This document shows positions 5,989 through 22,260 of a stretch of DNA of 64,000 nt, piece by piece. Within the stretch, counting starts at the first letter, position 1; each line of letters opens with the position of its first letter. The stretch covers positions 967,501-1,031,500 of the forward strand of contig NZ_CP109446.1 in NCBI RefSeq assembly GCF_036227265.1, given 5' to 3'. Source of the DNA: Streptomyces sp. NBC_01476 (GTDB taxonomy: Bacteria > Actinomycetota > Actinomycetes > Streptomycetales > Streptomycetaceae). Below the pieces are notes generated by a model that was given only the letters and a program-made list of their open reading frames with translations, was not told where the DNA came from and ran no database searches. Both the position numbers and the translations under genes were made by a program.

Positions 5989-7428
5989 TCAGACCTCGGT
6001 CTCGCTGCGGTCGCCGCCCCACAGCGTGTGGAAGCTGCCCGGGCGGTCGGTGCGGCGGTAGGTGTGGGCACCGAAGAAGTCCCGCTGCGCCTGGGTGAGG
6101 GCGGCGGGCAGCCGTTCGGCGCGCAGCGCGTCGTAGTACGCCAGCGCCGCGGAGAAGCCGGGCACCGGGACGCCCTGCTGCACGGCGGCGCCGACCACCG
6201 CCCGCCAGTCGTCCTGGGCGGCGCCGATCTCGTCGGCGAAGCGCTGGTCGGACAGCAGGCTCGGCAGGTCGGGGCGGCCGTCGTAGGCGGCGGTGATCCG
6301 GTCGAGGAAGGCCGCCCTGATGATGCAGCCACCGCGCCAGATGGAGGCGATGGCACCGAGGTCGACGTTCCAGCCGTACTCGTCACTGCCGGCCTGGATC
6401 TGGTGGAAGCCCTGGGTGTAGGAGACGATCTTCGACGCGTAGAGCGCCTGTTCCACCTGGTCGGCGAAGGCGGCCGCGGCCTTCTCGTCCAGCGGCGTGC
6501 CCTGCGGCCCGGCCAGGTCCCGGGAGGCGGCCCGCAGGTCGGCGTGGCCGGAGACCGCACGGGCGAAGACCGCCTCGGCGATACCGGAGACCGGGACGCC
6601 GAGGTCGAGCGCGGTCTGTACGGTCCAGCGACCGGTGCCCTTCTGCTCCGCCTGGTCCTCGACGACATCCACGAACGGCTTACCGGTGGCGGCGTCGGTG
6701 TGGGCAAGCACCTCGGCGGTGATCTCGATGAGATACGAGTCGAGCCGCCCGTTGTTCCAGGTGCGGAAGGTCTCCGCGATCTGCTGCGGGGTGTAGCCGG
6801 CCACCGTCCGCAGCAGGTGGTACGCCTCGGCGATCAGCTGCATGTCGGCGTACTCGATGCCGTTGTGCACCATCTTCACGAAGTGCCCGGCGCCGTCCGG
6901 CCCGATGTGGGTGGTACAGGGCTTGCCGTCCTTGGCCTTGGCGGCGATCTTCTCCAGCATCGGGCCGAGGGACTGGTACGACTCGGGGGAACCGCCGGGC
7001 ATGATGGACGGGCCGTTGAGCGCGCCCTCCTCGCCGCCGGAGACGCCGGTGCCGACGAAGTGGATGCCCTGCTCGCGCAGTTCGCGCTCGCGGCGGCGGG
7101 TGTCCTCGAAGTGGGCGTTGCCGCCGTCGATGATGACGTCGCCCTCTTCCAGCAGCGGCGCGAACTCGGCGATCACCGCGTCGGTGGGCTTGCCGGCCTT
7201 CACCATGATCAGCAGCCGGCGGGGCCGCTCCAGCGCCGCGACGAACTCCTCTGCACTGCCGGTCGGAATGAAGGCGCCCTCCTCGCCGTGCTGCTCCATC
7301 AGGGCGTCGGTCTTGGCCTTGGTCCGGTTGTGCAGTGCCACGGTGTAGCCGTGGCGGGCGAAGTTCCGGGCCAGGTTGCTGCCCATAACGGCCAGCCCGG
7401 TCACTCCGATGTCGGCCTTCTCGCTCAT
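5989..7428 (-). CDS. gnd: 6-phosphogluconate dehydrogenase, decarboxylating
   Basis: 479 residues, the length of the long (E. coli-type) NADP enzyme. It oxidises and decarboxylates 6-phosphogluconate to ribulose-5-phosphate in the cytosolic pentose phosphate pathway. Seen: Rossmann start IGVTGLAVMGSNLARN, the substrate motif GTGVSGGEEGALNGPSIMPGG (~residue 123), KMVHNGIEYADMQ, and the C-terminal HTYRRTDRPGSFHTLW. The ATG of MSEKADIG is preceded by AGGAG; an upstream in-frame ATG adds seven residues. It is the likely NADPH-generating enzyme of this stress-gene neighbourhood. Confidence 0.96.
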   Translation of the reverse strand: MSEKADIGVTGLAVMGSNLARNFARHGYTVALHNRTKAKTDALMEQHGEEGAFIPTGSAEEFVAALERPRRLLIMVKAGKPTDAVIAEFAPLLEEGDVIIDGGNAHFEDTRRRERELREQGIHFVGTGVSGGEEGALNGPSIMPGGSPESYQSLGPMLEKIAAKAKDGKPCTTHIGPDGAGHFVKMVHNGIEYADMQLIAEAYHLLRTVAGYTPQQIAETFRTWNNGRLDSYLIEITAEVLAHTDAATGKPFVDVVEDQAEQKGTGRWTVQTALDLGVPVSGIAEAVFARAVSGHADLRAASRDLAGPQGTPLDEKAAAAFADQVEQALYASKIVSYTQGFHQIQAGSDEYGWNVDLGAIASIWRGGCIIRAAFLDRITAAYDGRPDLPSLLSDQRFADEIGAAQDDWRAVVGAAVQQGVPVPGFSAALAYYDALRAERLPAALTQAQRDFFGAHTYRRTDRPGSFHTLWGGDRSETEV

Positions 7429-7557
7429 GCGGTGCTCCTGGGTGCTCACGCTTCGGCTCCGGTGGTCAGTCTGCCGCCGCCCGGCCCGCGCGGCCTGTTG
7501 AAGCGGCCGATCGGGGCGGGGCGGCGGCAGGACAGAACACCGACTGACAACGCGCCG

Positions 7558-7833
7558 TCAGCGCCGGCTGTTCCGCGAATTGCCGAAGACCAGGCGGTAG
7601 GCGATCAGCAGCACCAGCGCGCCGCCGATCGCCGCCAGCCAGTTGGCGCCGTCGAAGAAGTCGTGCCGCACCGGCCGGTCGAGGAACTTCGCCGACAGCC
7701 AGCCGCCGACGAAGGCGCCGGCCACGCCGAAGAAGAGGGTGCCGAGCAGGCCCCCGGGGTCACGGCCGGGCAGCAGTATCTTCGCGATGCCTCCGGCCAG
7801 CAGGCCGAGGATGATCCAGCTCACGATTCCCAT
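7558..7833 (-). CDS. GlsB/YeaQ/YmgE family membrane protein
   Basis: 91 residues with three hydrophobic segments. IVSWIILGLLAGGIAKILLPGRDPGG is the signature of the transglycosylase-associated (YeaQ/GlsB) family, small membrane proteins often induced by general stress. A second, more divergent member lies at 22857-23123. Molecular activity is not established for the family. Confidence 0.88.
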   Translation of the reverse strand: MGIVSWIILGLLAGGIAKILLPGRDPGGLLGTLFFGVAGAFVGGWLSAKFLDRPVRHDFFDGANWLAAIGGALVLLIAYRLVFGNSRNSRR

Positions 7834-12761: not shown

Positions 12762-13172
12762 TCAGTCGGGGCAGTCCGGCAGCGCGAAGGAGAAGGCGGC
12801 TGTGACCGTCTTCCCGTCCGGTTTGGTGTGCGCCTCCCAGTCGTCGGCGAGCGCCTCGATCAGCGCCATTCCGCGCCCCGAGGTCCGCTCGGGGTCAGGG
12901 GACCGGGGCGCGGGCAGCTGCGCGGAGGAGTCACCGACGCTCACCCGCAGGCACTTCCCGTCCCAGACCAGGACGACATGGGCGTCGCTGTGCGCGTGCA
13001 CATGGGCGTTGGTGATCAGTTCCGAGACGGCCAGCAGCACGTCGTCCGCGGTGTCCGGTGCCCGCTGGGTCCAGCCGAGCATGTCCAGGTGGGTACGGGC
13101 CCAGTCACGGCCCGCCTTCACTCCTTCGGAAACGGGGAACGATCGCGCCCAGCCGACGGCCTTCACTGGCAT
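12762..13172 (-). CDS. RsbW-like ATP-binding (HATPase_c) regulator
   Basis: 136 residues. A single GHKL ATPase domain: the N-box LLAVSELITNAHVHAH, CLRVSVGDSSAQLP, and the G-rich SGRGMALIEALADDW. Streptomycete proteins of this type act as anti-sigma kinases or bind STAS partners. It starts at ATG 13172 behind AGAGGAAG; no starts further upstream have a ribosome site. It follows a hairpin-rich 411-base gap. Confidence 0.88.
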   Translation of the reverse strand: MPVKAVGWARSFPVSEGVKAGRDWARTHLDMLGWTQRAPDTADDVLLAVSELITNAHVHAHSDAHVVLVWDGKCLRVSVGDSSAQLPAPRSPDPERTSGRGMALIEALADDWEAHTKPDGKTVTAAFSFALPDCPD

Positions 13173-13262
13173 CTCGCTTCCTCTTCGCACCGCGGTGGTG
13201 AGCGTCCGGACAGTCTCCGTGCGGGCCGCCGCGGGCTCTCGCCGGAGGGCGGAGGACGGCAG

Positions 13263-13305
13263 GCGCCCGGCCACCGTGCTGGGGGGCGTGTCGGTGGCCG
13301 GGCGC
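13263..13305 (-). terminator. 14-bp perfect inverted repeat, terminator or leader hairpin
   Basis: Arms 13263-13276 and 13292-13305 are exact reverse complements (GCGCCCGGCCACCG), with a 15-base loop. It lies 279 bases after the stop of the 13584-13997 gene and 91 bases before the start of the next, without a U-tract. Confidence 0.6.
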
Positions 13306-13344
13306 GGCCCGGAAGCGCCGGGGGGGGGTGGCGCCGCCGGGCGT

Positions 13345-13380
13345 GGTCCAGCCGTTTGCCGGACAACCACCGGCTGGACC
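13345..13380 (-). terminator. 10-bp perfect inverted repeat
   Basis: Arms GGTCCAGCCG (13345-13354) and CGGCTGGACC (13371-13380) with a 16-base loop. Second hairpin of the same gap. No poly-U follows, as is usual in streptomycetes. Confidence 0.55.
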
Positions 13381-13583
13381 GTGTCCCCTGCGAGTCCCCT
13401 GCGGGGGATGACTTCCGCCTGCCCGGGGTCCGGGGTCCCATGCACCTTCGGCGGGGAGATTTTTCCCGGCCCGCCGGCCTGGGGTGCCGGCCCCCGCAAG
13501 GGGTCTTCCGGCGGCCAGGAGAGCCGGTCCGGCCGGGCCGGCCGGCCGGTCGGCCCGTCAGCTCAGCTCCTCAGCTCAGCCCG

Positions 13584-13997
13584 TCAGTTCAGCCGCACCC
13601 GGACGCGGATGTCCTTGCCGCCCGAGCGGTGCGTGGTGACGGTGACGTCCTCGGCCACCGAGCACACCAGCGGCCAGCCGTAGCCGCCGGGCCGGCCGGG
13701 GGCGGCGGCCGGGGAGCGTACCGGCGGCGCGCTGCTGGCGTCGCCGACCATGACGTACACGAAGCCGTCCTCGACGACGGCGGTGAAGGCGGTGACCCCG
13801 CCGGCGTGCCGGATCGCGTTGGTGACCAGTTCCGAGGTCACCAACAGCACGTCGGTGACGGTCTGTTCGGCGGGAGCCGGCCGGCCGGCGGGCGGCGCCG
13901 GCTGCCGTTCCAGCAGAGCGCGTACGAGGTCGCGGGCCGCGGCCGCGCTGGTCGGCAGCGCGTACCCGGCGTCACAGGGCGGCTCCATCGTCGTCAC
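13584..13997 (-). CDS. RsbW-like ATP-binding (HATPase_c) regulator
   Basis: 137 residues. A GHKL domain with N-box LLVTSELVTNAIRHAGG and a truncated-looking G-rich region (GRPGGYGWPLVCSVAEDV), where GYGWPLV replaces the usual GxGL motif. It may be a kinase-poor or non-catalytic STAS binder. The ATG at 13997 is followed three codons later by another; either may be used. Confidence 0.85.
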   Translation of the reverse strand: MTTMEPPCDAGYALPTSAAAARDLVRALLERQPAPPAGRPAPAEQTVTDVLLVTSELVTNAIRHAGGVTAFTAVVEDGFVYVMVGDASSAPPVRSPAAAPGRPGGYGWPLVCSVAEDVTVTTHRSGGKDIRVRVRLN

Positions 13998-14090
13998 GGC
14001 CGCTCACCGGGCCGGGCGGCCGCGCCCGTCGCGGGCAGCGGACTCCGTCCCCGGCTCCTGCGGTACTCGGTCATCCGGTCACCCATCCGG

Positions 14091-14438
14091 TCACGCCTCC
14101 AACGCCTGGTCGAACGTGGCGGCAATGGTGAACAGCCCGGCGGTACCGGTGATGTCGAAGAGCCGTTGCACGATGTCGCTGAACGGGCCGGCCAGTACGA
14201 GTTTCCCGCCGGCCTCCCGGTGCCGGTGCTGCGCGGTCAGCAGCGTGTGCAGGATCGAGGAATCGGCGAACGGCACCGCGGACAGATCGATCACCGTGCG
14301 CACCGGGGCACTGAGCACGGCCTGTGCCAGGGTCCGCTCCAGCAGCGGGGCGGAATCGGCGTCGATCTCGTCCGTGACCCGGACCACCACCGTGTCACCC
14401 TCGGCCAGCACCGTTATCAGCTCGCCGGTCTCCGACAC
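14091..14438 (-). CDS. STAS-domain anti-anti-sigma factor
   Basis: 115 residues from a GTG with a strong GGAGGGGGG site. STAS fold: VVVRVTDEIDADSAPLLER, then VIDLSAVPFADSSILHTLL with Ser in ADSSI as candidate phospho-site. Longer in-frame starts exist but lack a ribosome site. It lies downstream of another STAS gene and upstream of an RsbW-like gene, all on the minus strand. Confidence 0.88.
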   Translation of the reverse strand: MSETGELITVLAEGDTVVVRVTDEIDADSAPLLERTLAQAVLSAPVRTVIDLSAVPFADSSILHTLLTAQHRHREAGGKLVLAGPFSDIVQRLFDITGTAGLFTIAATFDQALEA

Positions 14439-14515
14439 GCGTTCCCCCCTCCGTTCGGACACATTCTTCGTTCGGACACCTGTACCCGTCCTGGTCGGTG
14501 GACCGTACGACGAGA

Positions 14516-14878
14516 TTACCGGGGGCGGCCGGAGAGCTCCGCGAGAGCGGTCGCCGCTTCGTCCACCGAGCCGTACACCGAGACGATCTGATCGATGCCG
14601 ACGATCTGGAAGATCCGGGCCAGCTCCCGGGACACCCCGCTCAGCGCGAAGCCGGTGTGCGCCTCCTGGGTACGGCGGTAACCCGTGATCAGCGCGGTGA
14701 GACCGGTGGAGTCGCAGTACGTGACGCCGGACAGGTCGATCACCAGGCCGCTGCCGAGGGTCACGTCCTCCACCGCGTGCTGCAGCCGGCTCGCGGTGTG
14801 CAGGTCCAGATCCCCCGCGACCTCGAGAACGCAACTGCCGGTGGGCCTGGCCGAGACGGTGAGGGTCAGATCTGGCAC
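14516..14878 (-). CDS. STAS-domain anti-anti-sigma factor
   Basis: 120 residues from a GTG with GAGGAG upstream. A typical RsbV/BldG-like STAS protein: CVLEVAGDLDLHTASRLQ, then LVIDLSGVTYCDSTGLTAL with the phospho-acceptor Ser in CDSTG. It would release an anti-sigma ATPase's target when unphosphorylated; the adjacent PP2C phosphatase (15034-16608) is a plausible activator. Confidence 0.9.
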   Translation of the reverse strand: MPDLTLTVSARPTGSCVLEVAGDLDLHTASRLQHAVEDVTLGSGLVIDLSGVTYCDSTGLTALITGYRRTQEAHTGFALSGVSRELARIFQIVGIDQIVSVYGSVDEAATALAELSGRPR

Positions 14879-15033: not shown

Positions 15034-16608
15034 TCATCGCAGCCGCACCACCAGCAGCGCGACGTCGTCGTTGCCGTCCGGCGGGAAGCGCTCCAGCAGG
15101 TAGTCGCAGACCTCCTCGGCCCCGGTGGGTGCCTGCGCCAGGGCCTGCTCCAGTTCGGTGAGGCTGTCGCCGATGTCGGTGCCGCGCCGTTCCAGCAGCC
15201 CGTCGGTGACCATCACGATCTGCGAGCCGGCCGGCACGCCGACCCGGACGGCCGGCGGGTGCGGCAGCCCGAGCCCCAGCATCGGGCCGTGCTCGCGGAC
15301 GAACCAGGTGTGCCCGTCGGGTGCGCGCAGCACCGGCGGCAGGTGGCCGGCGTTGGCGATCCGCAGGGTGTCACCGCCGTTCTCGATGAGCATGATGCAC
15401 AGCGTGGCGCACACATGGGGGTTCAGCGTGCGGATCAGGTGCTCCAGATGGGCGGCGATGACGTCCGGGGGGTGCCCCTCCAGGGCGTACGCCCGCAGCG
15501 CGTGCCGCAGTTCGCCCATCACCACGGCCGCGTCCAGCGAGTGCCCCGCCACGTCGCCGACCGCGACGATCAGCCCGTCGCGTACCGCCAGCGCCTCGTA
15601 GAAGTCGCCGCCGATCTCGGTCGTCTCGCTGGCCGGCAGGTAGCGCACGGCGAGTTCGGCGTGGCCGGTCTCCGGCAGCGAGGCCGGCAGGAAGGTCCGC
15701 TGCAAGGTCAGCGCCAGGATGTGCTCCTCGCTGTACGAGCGCAGCGCCTCAAGCGACAGCGCGCTGGCGTGGGCGAGCTGGGTGAGCAGTTCGTGGTCGT
15801 CGGCGGTCAGGCCCTCGTCGGGCACCGCTATGCACAGCGGCGGCCGGCCGGCCTTGACCCGGGCCATGGCGACCGCGAGCACCGGCGCGCCGCCGGCCGC
15901 CGGGACGGTGTGCACCCGTACCCCGGTGGTGACGCCCAGCGGGTGCCGCTGGACGAGCGCCTGCACCTGGGCGGCGGCCGGTTCCGTGACCTCCACCGGG
16001 CCGTCCGCGGCGCCGGCCGCGTGGACGAGGCGGCCCTGCGGCGCGGTGAGCAGGACGGTGGCCGCGGACCCGAAGATCCCGACCGCGCCGAGCGCGGTGC
16101 CGCGGGCCAGCGCGGCGGCGTTGCCCGCGCTGTACAGCGCCAAGGTGGCCTGGTTCAGGCGCCTGAGCCGGTCGGCGAGGGTCTCGGCGCGCCGTCTGGC
16201 CCGGGCGTAGCGCAGCGTGGCGGTGACGGTGGCCAGCAGTTCGTCGGGGGCGATCGGCTCGGTCAGGTAGGCGTCCGCACCGCGGTTGAGGCCGTGGGCG
16301 CGGTCGGTGACGGTGATCGCGGAGGCCGAGATGTGGATCACCGGTACGGCGGCGGTGTGCGGGTCGGACTTGATCCGCTCGCACACCTCGAACCCGGTCA
16401 TGTCCGGCAGCCGTACGTCCACCACGGCCGCCTCGGGCAGCGGGCCGCCGCCGTGCAGCAGGGCCAGCGCGCCCGCGCCGTCCGCCGCCTCCACCACCGC
16501 GTGGCCGGCCCGCTGCAGGCAGGCGCTGAGGATGTAGCGGTTGGTGGGATTGTCGTCCACCACGAGGACCAGTGCCGGATCGGTGTCGGCTGCCGCTTCG
16601 CTGTTCAT
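15034..16608 (-). CDS. receiver-GAF-SpoIIE (PP2C) phosphatase
   Basis: 524 residues. Receiver domain (~residues 13-130) with acidic pocket VVDDNP and phospho-Asp in AVVDVRLPDM. The usual Lys of the T-K-P motif is replaced (AYLTEPIAPDE), so phosphorylation signalling may be altered. A GAF-like linker follows, then a PP2C/SpoIIE domain (~320-524) with GGDFYEALAVRDG, VGDVAGHSLDAAVVM and GNDDVALLVVRL. Its ATG overlaps the stop of the hybrid kinase gene (ATGA), so kinase and phosphatase form a dedicated pair that would dephosphorylate STAS proteins. Confidence 0.92.
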   Translation of the reverse strand: MNSEAAADTDPALVLVVDDNPTNRYILSACLQRAGHAVVEAADGAGALALLHGGGPLPEAAVVDVRLPDMTGFEVCERIKSDPHTAAVPVIHISASAITVTDRAHGLNRGADAYLTEPIAPDELLATVTATLRYARARRRAETLADRLRRLNQATLALYSAGNAAALARGTALGAVGIFGSAATVLLTAPQGRLVHAAGAADGPVEVTEPAAAQVQALVQRHPLGVTTGVRVHTVPAAGGAPVLAVAMARVKAGRPPLCIAVPDEGLTADDHELLTQLAHASALSLEALRSYSEEHILALTLQRTFLPASLPETGHAELAVRYLPASETTEIGGDFYEALAVRDGLIVAVGDVAGHSLDAAVVMGELRHALRAYALEGHPPDVIAAHLEHLIRTLNPHVCATLCIMLIENGGDTLRIANAGHLPPVLRAPDGHTWFVREHGPMLGLGLPHPPAVRVGVPAGSQIVMVTDGLLERRGTDIGDSLTELEQALAQAPTGAEEVCDYLLERFPPDGNDDVALLVVRLR

Positions 16609-18491
16609 GGCTGGGTACCGCCCTCCTGGCCACGGCCGGTGGCCGGCTGCCGGTGCAGTACCCCGGCCAGCCGGCCGGGGGTGAGGTGGGTCTTGCCGAG
16701 CACGGCCCGGGCGTGGGTCAGCCGTGACCGGTCGATGCCCTCGTGGTCGCCCGCGGTGAGCACCACCACCGGGATGCCGGCCAGCGCCCGGTCGCGGGCG
16801 AGGTGTTCGAGGAGCTGGTAGCCGTCCGGCGGCGGCATCGACAGGTCCAGCAGGACGGCGTCGGGCCGCTGGGCGCGTACCGCCGCCATCGCCTGCGAGC
16901 TGTCGACCACTTCGGTGACGCCGCGGGCCACCGCGGCCAGCACGGGCCGTACCGAGACCAGGAACGCCGGGTCGTCGTCGATCACCACCAGGGAGCCGAG
17001 CGGCGGCACCCCGTCGCCCTCGTCGCTGTCGCCGGCCGCGGGCCCGGGCAGCGGGATCCGGGTCTCCGCCGGGAGTTCGACCACCACCCGGGTGCCCTCG
17101 CCGGGGGCGCTGGACAGCGACAGCCGGCCGCCGAGGAGTTCGGTGAGCTTGCGGGCGTACGGCAGACCGAGGCCGGTGCCGCCGACCGCGCGCTGGTGCG
17201 GGCCGCGCACCTGGTAGAACTCCTCGAAGACCCGTTCCTGCTGGTCGGCGGGGATGCCCACGCCGGTGTCGGTGATGGTGAAGACGTACCAGGGCCGGCC
17301 GCGGCGGTCCTCGGTGCCGACGTCGAGGCGCACCTCGCCGGTCTCGGTGTACTTCAGGCTGTTGGACAGGACGTTGCGCAGGATCCGGGTGAGCATCACC
17401 TCGTCGGTGACCAGCGGCTGCGGCCGGCTGTCGTCGGGGACGACCAGGCGCACGCCGGGGCGGGCGGTCCCGCCCAGGGTGCCGCGCAACTGGTGCAGCA
17501 GGGAGCGCAGGTCGGTGTCGACGAGTTCGGGTTCGAGCCGGCCGGATTCGGCCTTGGCGACGTCCAGGAGCTCCTCGACCAGGGCCAGCAGCGTACTGCC
17601 GGAGGCCGCGATCAGGGCGATCTGCTGCCGCTGCTCGGCGCTGAGCGGATCCGCGCCCGCCGCCAGCAGCAGCCGGGTCAGGCCGATCACGGCGTTCGCC
17701 GGGGAGCGCAGCTCATGGCTGACGTTGGCCCAGAACCGGGTCTTCGCCTCACTGACCAGGGCCAGCTGGCGGCTCTTCTCGTCCAGTTCCGCGTAGAGCG
17801 CCACCACGCCGCTGTTGGTCTCCTCCAGTTCCTTGGACAGTTCGGAGTACAGCGCCATGACGCCCTGGTTGGTCTCCTCCAGCTCGGTGTTGAGCCGCTG
17901 GAGTTCCTCCTGGTGGGCGCGGGCCTGCTCAAGCGCCGCCAGCAGGTGGTGATTCTGGTTGCGCAGCTCCTCGCTCATGCTGATACCGCTCAGTCCGACC
18001 AGTTCCTCTCGGGCGCGGGCGGCCAGCTCCGCCGGGGATAGGGATGTGCGGGCCAGTGGCTGCCCCAGCACCAGGACCGAGCGCGTCCCCGGGGTCCAGT
18101 CGCACTGGTCGAGCAGCCGGTCCGCCGCCCGCAGGATGTCCCCGGACGGTTCGAGGTCCCCGCTCCAGTCCAGCCGGACGGTGACCCGCGGCGGGTCCGC
18201 GGCCTCCACCCCGAGGCGGGCGGTGAGGCCGGGGGCGCCGAGCAGGTCGCGGCCCACCTCGCTGAGCACGGTGGTGAGCCGTACCGTCTCGGCTTCCGGC
18301 AGACCGAGCAGCCGGAAGGCGGCGCTGGCGTCGCGGCGCAGCGCGAACACCTCGCGCTCACCGAGCAGCGGGATGGTCAGCACCGCCGGCGGACCGGCGG
18401 ACCGTGCCGCGTCAGCCGCGTCACCCACTCCACCCGCTCCACCCACTCCACCCGCTCCACCCGCGCCGGCCGGGGTCGCTCCGGCGCTCAT
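16605..18491 (-). CDS. hybrid histidine kinase with coiled coil and C-terminal receiver
   Basis: 628 residues. Gly/Ala/Val repeat tail (~10-25), an RsbW-like ATPase-related domain without clear catalytic motifs (~35-150), a long coiled coil (~160-230, heptads such as LNTELEETNQGVMALYSELS), HisKA with the phospho-His in SHELRSPAN, HATPase_c (NSLKYTETGEVRL, DTGVGIP, GTGLGLPYARK) and a receiver domain with VVIDDDP and phospho-Asp in VLLDLSMPPPD. No membrane segment, so it senses a cytosolic signal or protein partner. It is coupled by ATGA overlaps to both neighbours, linking the stressosome-like genes to the receiver-phosphatase. Confidence 0.92.
   Translation of the reverse strand: MSAGATPAGAGGAGGVGGAGGVGDAADAARSAGPPAVLTIPLLGEREVFALRRDASAAFRLLGLPEAETVRLTTVLSEVGRDLLGAPGLTARLGVEAADPPRVTVRLDWSGDLEPSGDILRAADRLLDQCDWTPGTRSVLVLGQPLARTSLSPAELAARAREELVGLSGISMSEELRNQNHHLLAALEQARAHQEELQRLNTELEETNQGVMALYSELSKELEETNSGVVALYAELDEKSRQLALVSEAKTRFWANVSHELRSPANAVIGLTRLLLAAGADPLSAEQRQQIALIAASGSTLLALVEELLDVAKAESGRLEPELVDTDLRSLLHQLRGTLGGTARPGVRLVVPDDSRPQPLVTDEVMLTRILRNVLSNSLKYTETGEVRLDVGTEDRRGRPWYVFTITDTGVGIPADQQERVFEEFYQVRGPHQRAVGGTGLGLPYARKLTELLGGRLSLSSAPGEGTRVVVELPAETRIPLPGPAAGDSDEGDGVPPLGSLVVIDDDPAFLVSVRPVLAAVARGVTEVVDSSQAMAAVRAQRPDAVLLDLSMPPPDGYQLLEHLARDRALAGIPVVVLTAGDHEGIDRSRLTHARAVLGKTHLTPGRLAGVLHRQPATGRGQEGGTQP
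18421..18464 (-). repeat. 9-bp in-frame tandem repeat (GGTGGAGYG unit)
   Basis: Four to five copies of GGTGGAG(C/T)G on the minus strand encode alternating Gly-Gly-Ala and Gly-Gly-Val near the N-terminus of the hybrid kinase. The period keeps the frame. Confidence 0.85.
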
Positions 18492-19510
18492 CGGTCCGCC
18501 TTCACCACGACGATCCCTGCGTCGTCGCCACGGGTACCGGCCTGCCAGAGCAGCTGTCCGGCGATCAGTACCGGGTCGAGGGCGAGCAGCCCGGGGAAGT
18601 CGGTGGGCGTCCACCGGTTGCTCAGGCCGTCGGAGTGCAGCACCAGCGCGGCGCCGGGCGGGAGTTCCGCCTCGAAGGTCTGCAGCCGGGAGATGCTGTG
18701 ACCGACGATCCCGGGGGTGGAGAGCAGGGTGCGGCGGATGTCGGGGCCGAGCACGAAGCCGCTGATGTTCCCGGCTCCGGACAACTCCACCCGGTGGCCC
18801 GGCCCGTCCACCCGGGCCACCGCGACGGCCGCGCCGCGGGAACCCTTGAGGCGGACGTGCAGGTCCTGCACGATCTGCGCCGGTGCGGTGGCCCGGCTCT
18901 CCCGGAAGGCCAGCCGGGCGGTCTCGGCGACGCGCGCGGCGAGCGGGCCGTGGCCCAGCCCGTCACACATCATCACCAGGGTGCCGGTGCTCCCCTCCCG
19001 GGTCGCCCAGGTGTCGCCGCACAGCTCCTCGCCGGTGATCGGCCGGGTGAGCCCGCCCACCGCGCCGCCGGCGGCGGGCGCCGCGGCGCCGCGCGGGTAG
19101 AAGCGGGCCAGCAGCGCGGTGCCGCGGCCGGGCAGCGAGTGGATGCCGAAGGTGTCCGCGAGCCGGTTGATGGCGCCGAGGCCCAGACCGAGCGTGCCGG
19201 CGCTTGAGATGCCGTCGGTCAGCGCGGCCCGGATGTCGGTGATGCCGGGTCCGCTGTCCAGGGCGAGGAACTCCACCCCGGCGGGCCGGCCGCGGCTCTC
19301 GATCCGCAGCGCGAGAGCGCCGTCGGAGCTGTGCCGTTGCAGGTTGGTGGCCGCTTCGGTGACGGCCAGCGCCAGGTCGTTGGCGCGGTCGGTGCCCAGC
19401 GCGATCCGGGCGGCCAGCCGTCCGGCCTCGCGGCGGGCGGCCGACGGCATCGCCTCACCGACCCGCAGCCACACCACGTCGCCCGCCTCGGTGGCGGGGG
19501 CGGGGGTCAT
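18488..19510 (-). CDS. RsbT-like ATPase fused to PP2C phosphatase (RsbX-like)
   Basis: 340 residues. N-terminal GHKL domain (~15-135) with LAVTEAATNLQRHSS, LALDSGPGITDI and LGLGLGAINRLAD. C-terminal SpoIIE/PP2C-like domain (~155-340) with MMCDGLGHGPLAARVAE, VARVDGPGHRVELSGAGN and GDDAGIVVVKAD. This fuses a switch-kinase-like domain with an RsbX-like phosphatase, a pairing known in actinobacterial stressosome clusters; RsbX resets RsbR/RsbS by dephosphorylation. The ATG overlaps the RsbT stop (ATGA); a GTG three codons upstream is an alternative. Confidence 0.9.
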   Translation of the reverse strand: MTPAPATEAGDVVWLRVGEAMPSAARREAGRLAARIALGTDRANDLALAVTEAATNLQRHSSDGALALRIESRGRPAGVEFLALDSGPGITDIRAALTDGISSAGTLGLGLGAINRLADTFGIHSLPGRGTALLARFYPRGAAAPAAGGAVGGLTRPITGEELCGDTWATREGSTGTLVMMCDGLGHGPLAARVAETARLAFRESRATAPAQIVQDLHVRLKGSRGAAVAVARVDGPGHRVELSGAGNISGFVLGPDIRRTLLSTPGIVGHSISRLQTFEAELPPGAALVLHSDGLSNRWTPTDFPGLLALDPVLIAGQLLWQAGTRGDDAGIVVVKADR

Positions 19511-19953
19511 CTGGCCCACTTGACGACGGTGACCGTGGTCCCCTTGCCGGCCTCGGAGACGAGGTCGAACTCGTCGACCAGCCGGCGGGCGCCGCTGAGG
19601 CCCAGGCCCATGCCCTTGCCCGAGGACCAGCCGTCGGTGAGGGCCAGGTCCAGATCGGGTATGCCGGGGCCCTGGTCACTGAACCGCACTCTGACCCCTC
19701 CTTTGAGTCCGCGCGCCAGCAGGCTGCCGCGCATGCTTCCGCCGCCGCCGTAGGAGAGCGTGTTACGGGCCAGTTCGCTGGCGGCGGTGACGAGTTTCGT
19801 CTGGTCGACCAGGGAGAGCCGGGCCTGCTGGGCCAGTATCCGTACCACCTGGCGGGCCTTGACCACGTCGGCGCTCGCCACGATGGACAGTTCCTGCACC
19901 GACGACTCGCCGGCCTCGTCGGCCTCGCCGGCGTGCCCGGTCTCCGTCCTCAC
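19507..19953 (-). CDS. rsbT: RsbT-like switch-protein kinase
   Basis: 148 residues, GTG start. GHKL anti-sigma-type kinase: ASELARNTLSYGGGG (N-box), SDQGPGIPDLDLALTDGWSS, GMGLGLSGARRLVDEF. In Bacillus, RsbT phosphorylates RsbS and RsbR and, once released from the stressosome, activates the phosphatase RsbU. The gene is in the canonical order R-S-T, and its start overlaps the rsbS stop (GTGA). The N-terminal ~20 residues are acidic and extra to the family. Confidence 0.93.
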   Translation of the reverse strand: MRTETGHAGEADEAGESSVQELSIVASADVVKARQVVRILAQQARLSLVDQTKLVTAASELARNTLSYGGGGSMRGSLLARGLKGGVRVRFSDQGPGIPDLDLALTDGWSSGKGMGLGLSGARRLVDEFDLVSEAGKGTTVTVVKWAR

Positions 19954-20327
19954 AGCAGGCCCGACGGGTCGGCCTTGGCCCGTCCGAGCTTGGCCAGCCC
20001 CTGCTCCAGGTTGAGCGCCGTACGCACCCCGCCCAGCGACAGGCCGAGTTCCACCAGCGTCATCGCGACGGCGGGCCGCATGCCGACGACGACGGTCTCG
20101 GCGCCGAGCACCCGCGAGATGGCCGCGATCGTGGCCAGCATCCGGCCGACGAAGGAGTCCACGATCTCCAGCGCGGAGATGTCGATCACCACGCCGTGCG
20201 CCCCGGTGGCGACGATCCGCTCGGAGAGGTCGTCCTGGAGGTCGAGCACCATCTGGTCCTCCAGGTCGATCTGGATGGAGACCAGGAGGACGTCGCCGAT
20301 CTTCAGTACCGGCACCCGCTCGGTCAT
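19950..20327 (-). CDS. rsbS: RsbS-like STAS stressosome scaffold
   Basis: 125 residues. A stand-alone STAS protein: VPVLKIGDVLLVSIQIDLED, DISALEIVDSFVGRMLATIA, VVVGMRPAVAMTLVELG. The Ser in VDSFVGR aligns with the phospho-acceptor Ser59 of Bacillus RsbS (family knowledge). With RsbR it would form the stressosome core that sequesters RsbT. ATGA overlap with the upstream rsbR stop. Confidence 0.94.
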   Translation of the reverse strand: MTERVPVLKIGDVLLVSIQIDLEDQMVLDLQDDLSERIVATGAHGVVIDISALEIVDSFVGRMLATIAAISRVLGAETVVVGMRPAVAMTLVELGLSLGGVRTALNLEQGLAKLGRAKADPSGLL

Positions 20328-21178
20328 ACCAGTCCTCCGGACCGCTCGTCGGCGGCCCTGCGCTGGTCGATCCGGGTCAGGGCGTGCCGCAGCGCGTCGG
20401 CGAGGGTGGCCTTGGTGGCGATGTCGCCGAACTCGATGCCGAGCGCCACGATGGTCTGCGCGATCTGCGGGCGGATACCGGAGATGGTGCACTCGGCGCC
20501 CATCATCCGTGCCGCGACCACGGTCTTCAGCAGGTGCTGGGCGACCTGGGTGTCCACCGCGGGCACGCCGGTGATGTCGATGATGGCGTGCGTGGCGTTG
20601 AGGTCGATCAGCGACTGGAGCAGCTTCTCCATCACCACCTGGGTGCGCGCCGAGTCCAGGGTGCCGACCAGCGGTACGCCGACCACGCCGTCCCAGAGCT
20701 TCACCACCGGGGTGGAGAGTTCCAGCAGCTGCTCGGCCTGGGCGGCGATGATCTCCTCCCGGGTCTTGGCGTGCGTCTCGACCGTGTAGAGGCCGAGGTC
20801 GTCCAGGGCGTGGAAGAAACGCAGGCCCGCGGCGGTGTCCGCCGGGTCGCCGGTCAGGGCCGGCTCCAGCACGTCCTTGAGGGCGAAGACGCCGAAGGCG
20901 GTCTCGGTGGGGCTGAACCCCTGGCGGGCGCGGTTGCGGGACAGCTCCGCCAGCAGCCCGCGGGTCTCCGCGAAGTGGTCGCCGCGGGTGGCGAGTCCGC
21001 CCTTGGCCAGGGCCGCGGTGATGGAGTCGTAGAGCGCGGTGAGTTCACGCTCCGCTTCGGCCGCCGTGAGGCGCCCGGCCAGCGTCGTCGTGACGACGCC
21101 GGTCCAGCTGGCGAGGAACTCCTCCCGCCGCTCGGTGAGGAGGCGCTCAAGCCCCTGTGCCGGTGTTTCCTCCGCCAT
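20324..21178 (-). CDS. rsbR: RsbR-like stressosome sensor (RsbRD N-domain plus STAS)
   Basis: 284 residues. Helical RsbRD-type N-terminal sensor domain (~1-150; RLLTERREEFLASWTGVV, FSPTETAFGVFALKDVLEPA) followed by a STAS domain (~170-275; IDITGVPAVDTQVAQHL, ISGIRPQIAQTIVALGI). The two Thr positions phosphorylated in Bacillus RsbR (in VDT and AQT) are present. First gene of the coupled stressosome-like operon; AGG-rich site (GGAGGGG) before the ATG. The promoter must lie in the 134 bases upstream, where I find no clear consensus. Confidence 0.94.
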   Translation of the reverse strand: MAEETPAQGLERLLTERREEFLASWTGVVTTTLAGRLTAAEAERELTALYDSITAALAKGGLATRGDHFAETRGLLAELSRNRARQGFSPTETAFGVFALKDVLEPALTGDPADTAAGLRFFHALDDLGLYTVETHAKTREEIIAAQAEQLLELSTPVVKLWDGVVGVPLVGTLDSARTQVVMEKLLQSLIDLNATHAIIDITGVPAVDTQVAQHLLKTVVAARMMGAECTISGIRPQIAQTIVALGIEFGDIATKATLADALRHALTRIDQRRAADERSGGLV

Positions 21179-21312: not shown

Positions 21313-21780
21313 TTAGAGGTCGAAGGGGCCGATCGGACCCAGTGCCAGCGTCACGGTGATCCGTTTGCCGACCGGCTCGCGCCGTACGTCGAAGCCGTCG
21401 GCGAGCGCGAAGACGATCTCCAGTCCGTGCTGGCCGATCCGTCCCGGCTCAGCCGCCCTGGCGATGGGGAGCGCGGTGTTGGTGTCCCACAGCGTGATCT
21501 CCAGCACAGGGCCGCGGATCTCCAGGTCGAGCGCGCAGGGCCCGGGGGCGTACTTGAAGGCGTTGGTGACCAGTTCGCTCACCACCAGCTGCGCGTCGGC
21601 GTCCGCCTGCTCGGGGACCCGGGCGCCGTGCAGCGTTCTGGCCCGCTCCAGGAAGGCCGCGGTGAAGGCACGCGCCTCCGCGATGGCGCCGGTCTGACCG
21701 TCGTACGCCGATCCGGCCCAGATGCCCTGGCCCGCCGGCCCACGCCGGCTGCTGCGGCCGGTTGCCGTCCCTGTTTCCAT
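21313..21780 (-). CDS. RsbW-like ATP-binding (HATPase_c) regulator
   Basis: 155 residues. GHKL domain: LVVSELVTNAFKYAPG, LEITLWDTNTALPIAR and GQHGLEIVFALADGF in place of the usual GxGL box. Putative anti-sigma or STAS-binding regulator. Upstream in-frame starts exist, but the ATG at 21780 has a GGGGAAGCGGAG site and a stress-sigma-like promoter 45 bases upstream. Confidence 0.87.
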   Translation of the reverse strand: METGTATGRSSRRGPAGQGIWAGSAYDGQTGAIAEARAFTAAFLERARTLHGARVPEQADADAQLVVSELVTNAFKYAPGPCALDLEIRGPVLEITLWDTNTALPIARAAEPGRIGQHGLEIVFALADGFDVRREPVGKRITVTLALGPIGPFDL

Positions 21781-21824
21781 CTCCGCTTCCCCTGTCCGGT
21801 CGCCGTTCACGACCGATCGACCGC

Positions 21825-21849
21825 ATACCCCGGCTTCCGAGGCGTACAC
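21825..21849 (-). promoter_or_regulatory. putative sigma-B-family promoter
   Basis: On the minus strand GTGT (21849-21846), 15 bases, then GGGTAT (21830-21825), matching the streptomycete SigB-type pattern GNNTN-N14-16-GGGTAY as I remember it. The -10 lies 45 bases before the ATG of the RsbW-like gene. Motif match only. Confidence 0.4.
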
Positions 21850-21912
21850 CCCCCGGGGTAAACGATCCCCGACCTGCTCCGGGCGGACCGAACACTCGTG
21901 CATACTTCCGCC

Positions 21913-22260
21913 ATGCCCACGCATGATGATTCCCCGCAGCGCGGCCCGTCCGCCGGTCCGGTACGCGTCGTGGCGGCGCACGGCGATCTCGACATCGAGA
22001 GCCTCGGGCCGCTGCGGCACGCCCTGGAGACCGCGGCCGAGGCGCCCGCGGTCGTGCTCGACGCCTCCGGCGTCACCTTCGCGGACTCGAGTTTTCTGTC
22101 GGTGCTGCTGACCATCCGGCAGCTGACCGACCTGCGGATCGCGGGCGCCCCGCCGCAGCTGCTGCGGCTGCTGGGCATCACCGGGGCGGACCGGATCATC
22201 GCGCTGTACCCGACGGTGGACGAGGCGCAGCGGGCGGAGCGCGCCGACACCGGCCCGTGA
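21913..22260 (+). CDS. STAS-domain protein
   Basis: 115 residues from ATG 21913 (a GTG at 21898 adds five). STAS fold: VVAAHGDLDIESLGPLRHAL, VVLDASGVTFADSSFLSVLL with a candidate phospho-Ser in ADSS. It is divergent from the RsbW-like gene at 21313-21780, a natural partner pair (kinase and STAS antagonist) sharing a 133-base promoter region. No strong ribosome site is visible for either start. Confidence 0.88.
   Translation: MPTHDDSPQRGPSAGPVRVVAAHGDLDIESLGPLRHALETAAEAPAVVLDASGVTFADSSFLSVLLTIRQLTDLRIAGAPPQLLRLLGITGADRIIALYPTVDEAQRAERADTGP

Follow-up and report, generated by a model that had tools for sequence, protein, structure and literature searches.

The window, that is, the whole stretch of 64,000 nucleotides of Streptomyces sp. 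NBC_01476 DNA analysed here, contains six open reading frames that lie end to end from 21178 to 15034, in the order RsbR-RsbS-RsbT-X-K-Y (Table 1). All six frames are open, and each of the five junctions is one 4-nt stop-start overlap; from R to Y, the overlaps are ATGA, GTGA, ATGA, ATGA and ATGA. The ORF coordinates and the junction letters bear out the six-gene operon with an overlap at every junction, as proposed in the preliminary description of this DNA. The operon is located on the minus strand, which corrects that description.

Table 1. Genes of the operon and features of K, with positions in the window.
Feature	Position	Strand	Basis
RsbR (284 aa)	20324..21178	-	ORF; RsbRD_N + STAS
RsbS (125 aa)	19950..20327	-	ORF; single STAS
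RsbT (148 aa, GTG start)	19507..19953	-	ORF; HATPase_c and HATPase_c_2
X (340 aa)	18488..19510	-	ORF; HATPase_c_2 + SpoIIE
K, hybrid histidine kinase (628 aa)	16605..18491	-	ORF; HisKA, HATPase_c, Response_reg
Pseudo-RsbT domain of K (aa 33-150)	18042..18395	-	Fold of RsbW/SpoIIAB type, without the ATP motifs
Continuous helix of K (aa 172-277, model residues 140-245)	17661..17978	-	Predicted by AlphaFold2; enters HisKA
Motif copy 1, TNQGVMALYSEL (aa 207-218)	17838..17873	-	Sequence of K
Motif copy 2, TNSGVVALYAEL (aa 225-236)	17784..17819	-	Sequence of K
Y (524 aa)	15034..16608	-	ORF; Response_reg + SpoIIE

The first three proteins are of stressosome type. RsbR has one N-terminal domain followed by a STAS domain with two Thr sites; both Thr positions (VDT and AQT) are kept, as judged by alignment with solved RsbR chains. 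RsbS is a single STAS domain with Ser at the phosphorylation site; its VDSF serine aligns with IDSF of the solved RsbS 6jhk (E 6.9e-32), which we take to be the B. subtilis protein. In RsbT, the N-box, G1 and G2 motifs of a stressosome kinase are all intact. With a constant offset of 15, its R34, R38 and D107 correspond to R19, R23 and D92 of B. subtilis RsbT, as numbered in the sections of PMC12143880 used here.

X contains one RsbT-like domain (aa 24-134) at the N-terminus and one RsbX-type PP2C domain (aa 151-336). Its best solved relatives are 3zt9 (E 2.8e-18) and RsbX 3w40 (E 4.9e-6). Like RsbX, it carries an RsbX-related SpoIIE/PP2C domain; different from RsbX, which the excerpts of PMC9237108 describe as a single-domain PP2C, it has the extra RsbT-like domain. 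X is a fusion variant that may work like RsbX, and its sequence predicts a feedback phosphatase. Y is composed of a receiver domain, a middle region and a SpoIIE-type PP2C domain; this architecture is RsbY-like and, together with K, it gives the hybrid kinase and receiver-PP2C combination of RsbK and RsbY.

By gene content, the operon belongs to a known kind, the RSTX stressosome modules. In the parts of Heinz et al. 2022 (PMC9237108) consulted, such modules comprise RsbR, RsbS, RsbT and one RsbX-type phosphatase, followed by signalling genes whose outputs vary among PP2C, c-di-GMP and HisKA/REC phosphorelays. Different from those modules, the output here is a receiver-PP2C protein. The survey, as excerpted, covers globin-type RsbR only and does not list actinomycetes; its section on occurrence mentions neither the RsbT-derived domain nor the TNxGV helix of K that are described below.

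In K, Pfam recognises HisKA (residues 249–317, with His259 as the phosphoacceptor), HATPase_c (363–476) and Response_reg (502–583), whereas the extra N-terminal domain stays below every Pfam cut-off. The ATPase-like domain that the preliminary description had noticed in the hybrid kinase is nevertheless real, as indicated by profile alignment and predicted structure. With hhalign, the domain matches RsbT of the window at a probability of 87.6 (E 3.5e-6). The AlphaFold2 model of the domain has a pLDDT of 91.5, and its ten best solved folds are all of RsbW/SpoIIAB/UsfX type, with Z scores from 14.4 to 12.3; the top match (Z 14.4) superimposes with an rmsd of 2.0 over 99 residues. SiaB (Z 11.1), LvrC (10.1) and the best histidine-kinase catalytic domain (7.9) follow. 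The N-domain of X was rejected as the closest relative, since profile comparison gave no match between the two (E 0.3). In the tree, the RsbT proteins and the N-domains of X and K form one clade each (support 0.892, 1.0 and 0.954), with none of 186 domains misplaced.

At the equivalent position of K, the RsbT-type domain is intact in other lineages. All six ATP-binding residues checked are kept in 31 intact K N-domains of those lineages, and 0 to 3 in 32 degenerate ones, that of the window included. By sequence kinship, fold and tree, the extra domain of K is a decayed RsbT paralogue. Its residues suggest that it is degenerate in this lineage and unlikely to be a working ATPase; owing to the loss of the ATP-binding residues, a working second ATPase was rejected.

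Besides the RsbT-derived domain, no input domain of K was recognised by Pfam, profile and fold comparison. Compared to B. subtilis RsbU, K has no RsbU_N match at E up to 1, and the decayed RsbT domain stands instead. B. cereus RsbK, with which K shares the hybrid histidine kinase, the signalling helix and, by prediction, the receiver-PP2C target, has CHASE3, HAMP and GAF domains and a methylase, RsbM, according to the excerpts of PMC4574943. In K, none of the three domains was matched, and no RsbM gene is present among the six operon genes; different from RsbK, K belongs to a stressosome operon. In 7 of 22 loci the protein ends after the catalytic domain, as judged from match end and ORF length; the receiver of K is apparently dispensable.

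C-terminal to the pseudo-RsbT domain is the helix with the TNxGVxALYxEL motif, which is present in two copies; copy 2 starts 18 residues after copy 1, and its Gly is 31 residues before His259. We searched for the DNA pattern of GVVALYAELD and obtained 118 stretches in many phyla, 80 in the first set and 38 in the second; L117, with the motif in a frame-shifted K, was left out of the first set, leaving 79 proteins. The motif Gly lies 31 residues before the phospho-His in 75 of 79 proteins of the first set, in 37 of 38 of the second and in all 22 of a third. The exceptions are L088 and L121 with other spacing, L104 and L132 without a His box, and L142, which is cut at a contig block. Before GVV, Thr and Asn are found in all 79 proteins and Arg in 65; none of these three residues was fixed by the search pattern. 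The helix is not generic to histidine kinases: it gave one match in the own genome, against 42 for whole K, which were mostly other kinases and receivers. Four motif strings were not found in the texts of open-licence papers.

The order RsbR-RsbS-RsbT-X-K-Y is not special to this genome. The gene-order comparison called for in the preliminary description showed that residues 1–245 of K are matched in 25 of 147 genomes of the order, own included, and that the order is kept in 22 of the 25 loci, mostly with 4-nt overlaps (in L040, X was read as two ORFs). An operon unique to this genome was rejected on these counts. The 4-nt overlap is present in 24 of the 25 loci between R and S, in all 25 between S and T, and in 15 between T and X, where the remaining 10 have a 13-nt overlap; over 22 loci, it is present in 17 between X and K and in 20 between K and Y. 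All five occur together in 8 of the 22 six-gene loci. The fixed ratio of the products put forward in the preliminary description is a conjecture, and in 14 of these loci at least one junction is otherwise. Judged from their retention across the 25 loci, the overlaps appear to go beyond chance. A phylum-wide search with the N-domain plus helix of K, in which at most seven candidates per genome were scored, found at least 4 of 396.

Of the 72 motif loci whose upstream sequence extends over 2,821 nt or more, 71 have R-S-T-X in order upstream of the helix (51 of 51 in the first set and 20 of 21 in the second); at the preset cut of 4,800 nt, the counts are 28 of 28 and 13 of 14. In Deinococcus radiodurans R1, R-S-T-X-K is located on plasmid pMP1. 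The one exception, L153, is a helix-bearing kinase for which 6.2 kb of upstream sequence contain neither R nor S nor T; its neighbour, an 80-residue ORF, matches X weakly (27.5 bits), and the locus looks like a remnant. Among the rows set aside or contrary to our reading, L050 has K and Y reduced to remnants, and L051 has no N-domain match. As the exact 10-residue pattern selects mostly one orthologous family, much of this association could be due to nothing more than conservation of the operon. In the RsbS-based survey, a motif-bearing effector comes next in all 9 loci whose X carries the RsbT domain and in none of the 24 others.

The helix is also reused on another output. In L048, L049, L104 and L205–L212 it is joined directly to PP2C. 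For the streptomycete-family fusions L205–L211, hhalign does not support descent of the N-domain from RsbT (probability 3.3, E 0.013 against the K N-domain; probability 1.5, E 0.033 against RsbT), and such descent is suggested by position only. For the phosphatase linkers of other stressosome operons, QRG was found in L229 and L231; in 11 of 13, the stretch compared has nothing comparable.

These comparisons bear on whether K and Y are one ordinary two-component pair, merely co-transcribed, with an input unrelated to RsbR, RsbS and RsbT. In favour of this, Y has the architecture of RsbY, which in B. cereus works together with the hybrid kinase RsbK; B. cereus is described as lacking rsbRST in the part of PMC3999984 used. 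Against this stand the lack of any further recognised input domain in K, the association with R-S-T-X across many phyla, the retention of three RsbT-type paralogue clades in one operon and the reuse of the input helix on PP2C in such operons; we regard a merely co-transcribed pair as very unlikely. The coupling of the stressosome to K and Y suggested in the preliminary description is supported by comparison, through the RsbT-derived input domain, R-S-T-X at nearly all loci and the helix-PP2C fusions; contact between the proteins is a prediction.

We favour a stressosome with a dedicated output from K to Y, in which the helix is the docking site of RsbT and the pseudo-RsbT domain is an anchor; as a whole, we give this reading a probability of about 0.5. 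RsbR and RsbS would form the STAS core, with RsbT as the switch kinase and X as the feedback phosphatase bearing its own RsbT-type domain. The decayed RsbT domain would anchor K to a stressosome partner, and the TNxGVxALYxEL helix would serve in trans as a docking site for RsbT or for the corresponding domain of X. The output signal would leave through K and reach the receiver-phosphatase Y; Y would then remove the phosphate from a STAS anti-anti-sigma factor of RsbV/BldG type and so free a sigma factor. The binding partners, the assembly of a particle, the direction in which the switch works, the transfer of phosphate from K to Y and the target of the phosphatase are all predicted elements of this scheme. 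STAS genes lie close to the operon, at 14519..14878. Neighbouring STAS genes, checked as candidate substrates of Y, showed weak and patchy conservation.

The docking proposed for K is akin to the ordering of the RsbU linker helix by RsbT. In B. subtilis, according to the excerpts of PMC12143880, RsbT hands the signal on to a linker helix that precedes the output domain, and the RsbU residues mapped to the RsbT contact include T89, R91, G92 and Q94. The output domain here is that of a histidine kinase; the fused relatives have PP2C in its place. The motif in K lies in a predicted helix, and the T-x-R-G that the motif has in most relatives matches T89, R91 and G92, a short match that was noticed after the fact. 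In K of the window, neither copy has the Arg (Gln and Ser stand in its place), and within the own order it is variable, being found in the first copy in 9 of 22 proteins and in the last copy in 3 of 22. Where RsbU has Q94, the motif carries Val, Met or Leu. The motif may be the place where the stress signal reaches K.

RsbU R91 has an Asp of RsbT as its partner; this Asp is conserved in 58 of 59 RsbT proteins, 62 of 63 X N-domains and 1 of 64 K N-domains, and one Arg is kept in all 64 of the latter. The presumed equivalent face serves STAS partners in RsbW, through Arg23 (PMC7340262), and also the contact with RsbU, through RsbT R19 (PMC12143880, in part); therefore the conserved Arg is compatible with an anchor and with other roles alike. 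A rival reading is a clamp in cis, with the pseudo-RsbT domain folded onto its own helix so as to keep the kinase inactive (or active); the stressosome would then act solely by competing for that domain, and free RsbT would never contact K. The two elements are covalently joined in the 64 K proteins examined, and the RsbU linker helix is a reported RsbT contact (PMC12143880, as excerpted). With a pTM of 0.64, the AlphaFold2 model does not fix the placement of the N-domain relative to the helix. Loss of the pairing Asp in 63 of 64 K N-domains argues against the clamp, as do several K proteins that have the helix without the N-domain. The latter, at least six of the 79 and also L141, L143 and L154 of the other 38, indicate that the N-domain is dispensable, which also counts against the favoured reading. 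We consider the clamp unlikely.

RsbT might instead phosphorylate K, meeting it only briefly as kinase and substrate, in the manner suggested for D1 of V. vulnificus. The available parts of PMC9237108 propose this for targets without RsbU_N; they also report, against the docking favoured here, that contact between V. vulnificus RsbT and the downstream two-component protein was not detected. In Moorella, an RsbT homologue is described as phosphorylating a diguanylate cyclase (PMC4976288, in part), and the intact ATP motifs of RsbT are in keeping with such a role. Known RsbT substrates are STAS domains, and none was recognised in K; the Thr that never varies in the motif is placed inside the predicted helix. 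Neither point is decisive, and we find phosphorylation of K by RsbT quite improbable.

Among streptomycete systems, OsaC/OsaD and SCO7325/SCO7328 of S. coelicolor also combine partner switching with a kinase tied to osmotic stress and SigB (PMC9739823 and PMC8346170, in part); SCO7327 is OsaD, which is thought to sense osmotic stress (PMC9739823, in part). The excerpted descriptions of these systems give no R-S-T-X-K-Y operon, which sets them apart.

In its accessible sections, PMC9237108 leaves open how stressosomes signal to targets without RsbU_N. Our analysis names the helix motif, its residues and the decayed RsbT domain as candidates, in tractable organisms such as streptomycetes and D. 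radiodurans R1. A wider but doubtful proposal is that the helix is a portable RsbT-docking linker, and that in actinomycetes the dead RsbT domain parks K on the particle as a resident. If so, the linker would be the missing link in the many operons of this kind in which the target has no RsbU_N, and one stressosome could drive a histidine kinase relay or a phosphatase by simple domain exchange. If the docking on the helix holds true, one sequence signature would pick out, in many phyla, kinases and phosphatases under stressosome control.

The six-gene operon is located on the minus strand, from 21178 to 15034, with every frame open throughout. It encodes RsbR, RsbS, RsbT, one RsbT-like domain fused to an RsbX-type PP2C (X), one hybrid histidine kinase (K) and one receiver-PP2C protein (Y). 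As proposed in the preliminary description, stop and start codons overlap at every junction; all five are 4-nt overlaps (ATGA, GTGA, ATGA, ATGA and ATGA). RsbS aligned with the solved RsbS 6jhk (E 6.9e-32), including the VDSF serine, and both Thr positions of RsbR aligned to solved RsbR chains. For the phosphatase half of X, the nearest solved relative is 3zt9 (deposited as SpoIIE), followed by RsbX 3w40. The start of K (18420–18470) contains a short Gly/Ala/Val repeat, GAGGAGGVGGAGGVG, encoded by repeated DNA. Small STAS and HATPase_c_2 ORFs flank the operon on both sides (12765–14878 and 21316–22260), with patchy conservation in relatives.

Table. Operon genes and flanking partner-switching ORFs in the window
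Feature	Coordinates	Strand	Assignment
RsbR		minus	Pfam: RsbRD_N + STAS
RsbS		minus	Pfam: STAS
RsbT		minus	Pfam: HATPase
X		minus	Pfam: HATPase_c_2 + SpoIIE
K		minus	Pfam: HisKA + HATPase_c + receiver
Y		minus	Pfam: receiver + SpoIIE
STAS ORF	14519–14878		Pfam
HATPase_c_2 ORF	13587–13997		Pfam
HATPase_c_2 ORF	12765–13499		Pfam
HATPase_c_2 ORF	21316–22020		Pfam
STAS-like ORF	about 14094–14438		by eye
STAS-like ORF	about 21898–22260	plus	by eye

Residues 33–150 of K (K-N) gave no Pfam match above the cut-off. A profile of 24 K relatives matched the window's RsbT with an hhalign probability of 87.6 (E 3.5e-6), and the AlphaFold2 model of residues 33–286, calculated from 44 sequences (pLDDT 91.5, pTM 0.64), is composed of one small α/β domain and a single 106-residue helix. 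Ranked by VIA-align 2 among Foldseek's best 1000 structures, the ten best solved folds for K-N are all of RsbW, SpoIIAB, Rv1364c or UsfX/anti-SigF type (Z 14.4–12.3); RsbW 6m36 superimposes with an rmsd of 2.0 over 99 residues. SiaB (Z 11.1) and LvrC (10.1) come next, the best histidine-kinase catalytic domain reaches 7.9, and Foldseek's own first 18 rows agree with this ranking. At the same place in K, an intact RsbT-type domain is present in loci of Cyanobacteria, Acidobacteria, Proteobacteria, Planctomycetota, Nitrospira and Solirubrobacter; in L058 and L066 Pfam identified it as HATPase_c_2 (E 1.4e-17 and 3.8e-17, respectively).

In a tree of 59 RsbT, 63 RsbT-like domains of X (X-N) and 64 K-N, each set forms one clade (support 0.892, 1.0 and 0.954, respectively) with zero misplaced members, so it seems that the three RsbT-type paralogues have moved together. 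All RsbT, all X-N and all 31 intact K-N retain the six ATP-binding positions compared. The 32 degenerate K-N (the window's own, 29 from other actinomycete loci, and L068 and L081 from Paraburkholderia) retain 0–3 of the six; the N-box Asn is present in none and the G1 Asp in one. K-N of L098 shows partial decay. The partner-face Arg, which corresponds to SpoIIAB R20 by alignment and to RsbT R19 by constant offset, is retained in 59/59 RsbT, 62/63 X-N and 64/64 K-N. The Asp equivalent to RsbT D92 is found in 58/59 RsbT and 62/63 X-N, but only in 1/64 K-N. The decayed RsbT of K would tether the kinase to a stressosome partner; as a rival, it could act as a cis clamp on K itself. The helix occurs without the N-domain in six of 79 K proteins (L063, L080, L085, L088, L099 and L122; L124, an ambiguous case, is left out of this count) and, in a second set of 38, in L141, L143 and L154.

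The helix, located between K-N and HisKA, carries the motif TNxGVxALYxEL, two copies of which are present in the window's K. A DNA pattern in which GVVALYAELD alone was fixed yielded at least 118 stretches in a scan that covered one genome of each species; 80 formed the first set, with the motif in a usable ORF in 79 (L117 is frame-shifted), and the remaining 38 formed the second. T-N-x precedes GVV in all 79 proteins, x being Arg in 65. Arg occupies x in 43 of the 48 one-copy proteins; among the 31 two-copy proteins, 30 first copies have Arg or Lys and 22 last copies have Arg. In the window's order Arg is less common (9/22 first and 3/22 last copies), and it is absent from both copies in the window's K. 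The distance from the motif Gly to the phosphoacceptor His is 31 residues in 75/79, 37/38 (L142 is truncated) and 22/22 order relatives; the off-spacing cases among the 79 are L088 with an insert, L121 at 45 and two without a His box. Two copies are always 18 residues apart (31/31, and 22/22 order relatives).

PMC12143880 supports a contact between RsbT and the RsbU linker helix with genetics, biochemistry and modelling, and names T89, R91, G92 and Q94 and the pair RsbU R91–RsbT D92. Compared with T-N-R-G-V of the K motif, T, R and G are equally spaced and Q is not matched; the match is short and post hoc. Once freed from the core, RsbT itself, or X through its RsbT domain, would act on the K helix; alternatively, K might be phosphorylated by RsbT. 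Our search of the open-licence literature turned up neither the RsbT-derived domain of K nor the helix motif.

The genes for RsbR, RsbS, RsbT and X (R-S-T-X) stand in order in 51/51 first-set loci that have 2,821 nt or more of upstream sequence, and in 28/28 at the pre-set cut-off of 4,800 nt. As expected from the little upstream sequence, the 28 loci below 2,821 nt show nearer genes only (5 STX, 2 TX, 13 X and 8 none). The second set gave 20/21 and 13/14, respectively. In L153, the sole exception, the 6.2 kb upstream of the kinase contain neither R nor S nor T, and the adjacent ORF, of 80 residues, matches X weakly; this kinase (657–2086, from a gammaproteobacterial MAG) bears the helix, lacks the N-domain and has two H-box-like stretches. 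It seems a chimera, and the locus is probably a rearranged remnant. Because the exact pattern mostly picks one orthologous family, the association reflects operon conservation and is not proof of contact. A rival reading is that K and Y are an unrelated two-component pair. Plasmid pMP1 of Deinococcus radiodurans R1 carries R-S-T-X-K and a second receiver/kinase gene (L237, 3103–8935); in its K the RsbT-type domain is intact and the motif reads TNRGVVALYAELE.

With K residues 1–245 as query, matches were found in 25/147 genomes of the order, own included. All 25 loci taken from other matched genomes of the order have R-S-T-X in order (L040 is counted although its X reads as two ORFs), and 22 have K and Y. 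In two (L048 and L049) K-N and helix are fused straight to PP2C, and in L050 K and Y are remnants only; behind R-S-T-X there, at about 7049–7642, are matches to K residues 37–116 and 211–240 and to the end of Y. The receiver is absent from K in 7/22, the protein ending after the catalytic domain (matches stop no later than residue 489, in ORFs of 460–519 aa). Overlaps of 4 nt occur at RS in 24/25, ST in 25/25, TX in 15/25, XK in 17/22 and KY in 20/22, and at all five junctions in 8/22 six-gene loci. Phylum-wide, K-N plus helix was found in at least 4/396 genomes, a lower bound with at most seven candidates scored per genome; one of the four, G342, is a 46-residue match not taken as K. The own genome gave a single helix of this kind at E up to 0.01 and a single RsbS at E up to 1e-20; at E up to 1e-5 it likewise gave one RsbR, apart from a match to RsbS.

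RsbS was found in 35/396 phylum genomes, and 33 loci were examined (own genome and G004 left out). X carries an RsbT domain in nine, and a motif-bearing effector comes next in 9/9: K and Y in L204, helix fused to PP2C in L205–L212, with a GAF domain in L205 and L211, the two run through Pfam. Among the other 24, X is short in 19 and missing from the stretch in 5, several of the loci being truncated by contig ends; the helix motif was found in 0/24. Within this sample, then, fusion of RsbT to X and the helix occur together, with an exchangeable output following the helix. L205–L212 are eight genomes of the window's family, with the helix-PP2C protein replacing K and Y behind R-S-T-X; its N-domain might be an RsbT at a further stage of decay, and profile comparison of this domain from L205–L211 gave hhalign probabilities of 3.3 against K-N (E 0.013) and 1.5 against RsbT (E 0.033). 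In Planosporangium flavigriseum (L104, 5948–7459) the helix is fused to GAF and PP2C, and both histidine kinase and receiver are absent; this looks like an independent shortcut fusion. L232, L233 and L235 have the order T-R-S, an RsbT-like domain in a 357–372 aa protein and no X in the stretch. A haloarchaeal plasmid of Halobaculum halophilum (H35, NZ_CP058531.1 75568–75936) encodes a relative of the query's RsbT-type half.

The operon belongs to the known RSTX stressosome modules as a variant. Among the RSTX modules surveyed in PMC9237108, RsbU_N is absent from most downstream proteins, and no contact was found between V. vulnificus RsbT and its downstream two-component protein. The coupling of the stressosome to K and Y suggested at the outset is likely, the fixed ratio proposed with it is hypothetical, and the combination is recurrent. 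Composition, fold, kinship, association and spacing are observed; all contacts, the direction of switching, the phosphotransfer and the substrate of Y are inferred. A stressosome with a private output is the most economical account: K would pass phosphate to Y, and Y would dephosphorylate a STAS anti-anti-sigma factor, which the flanking partner-switching neighbourhood may hold.
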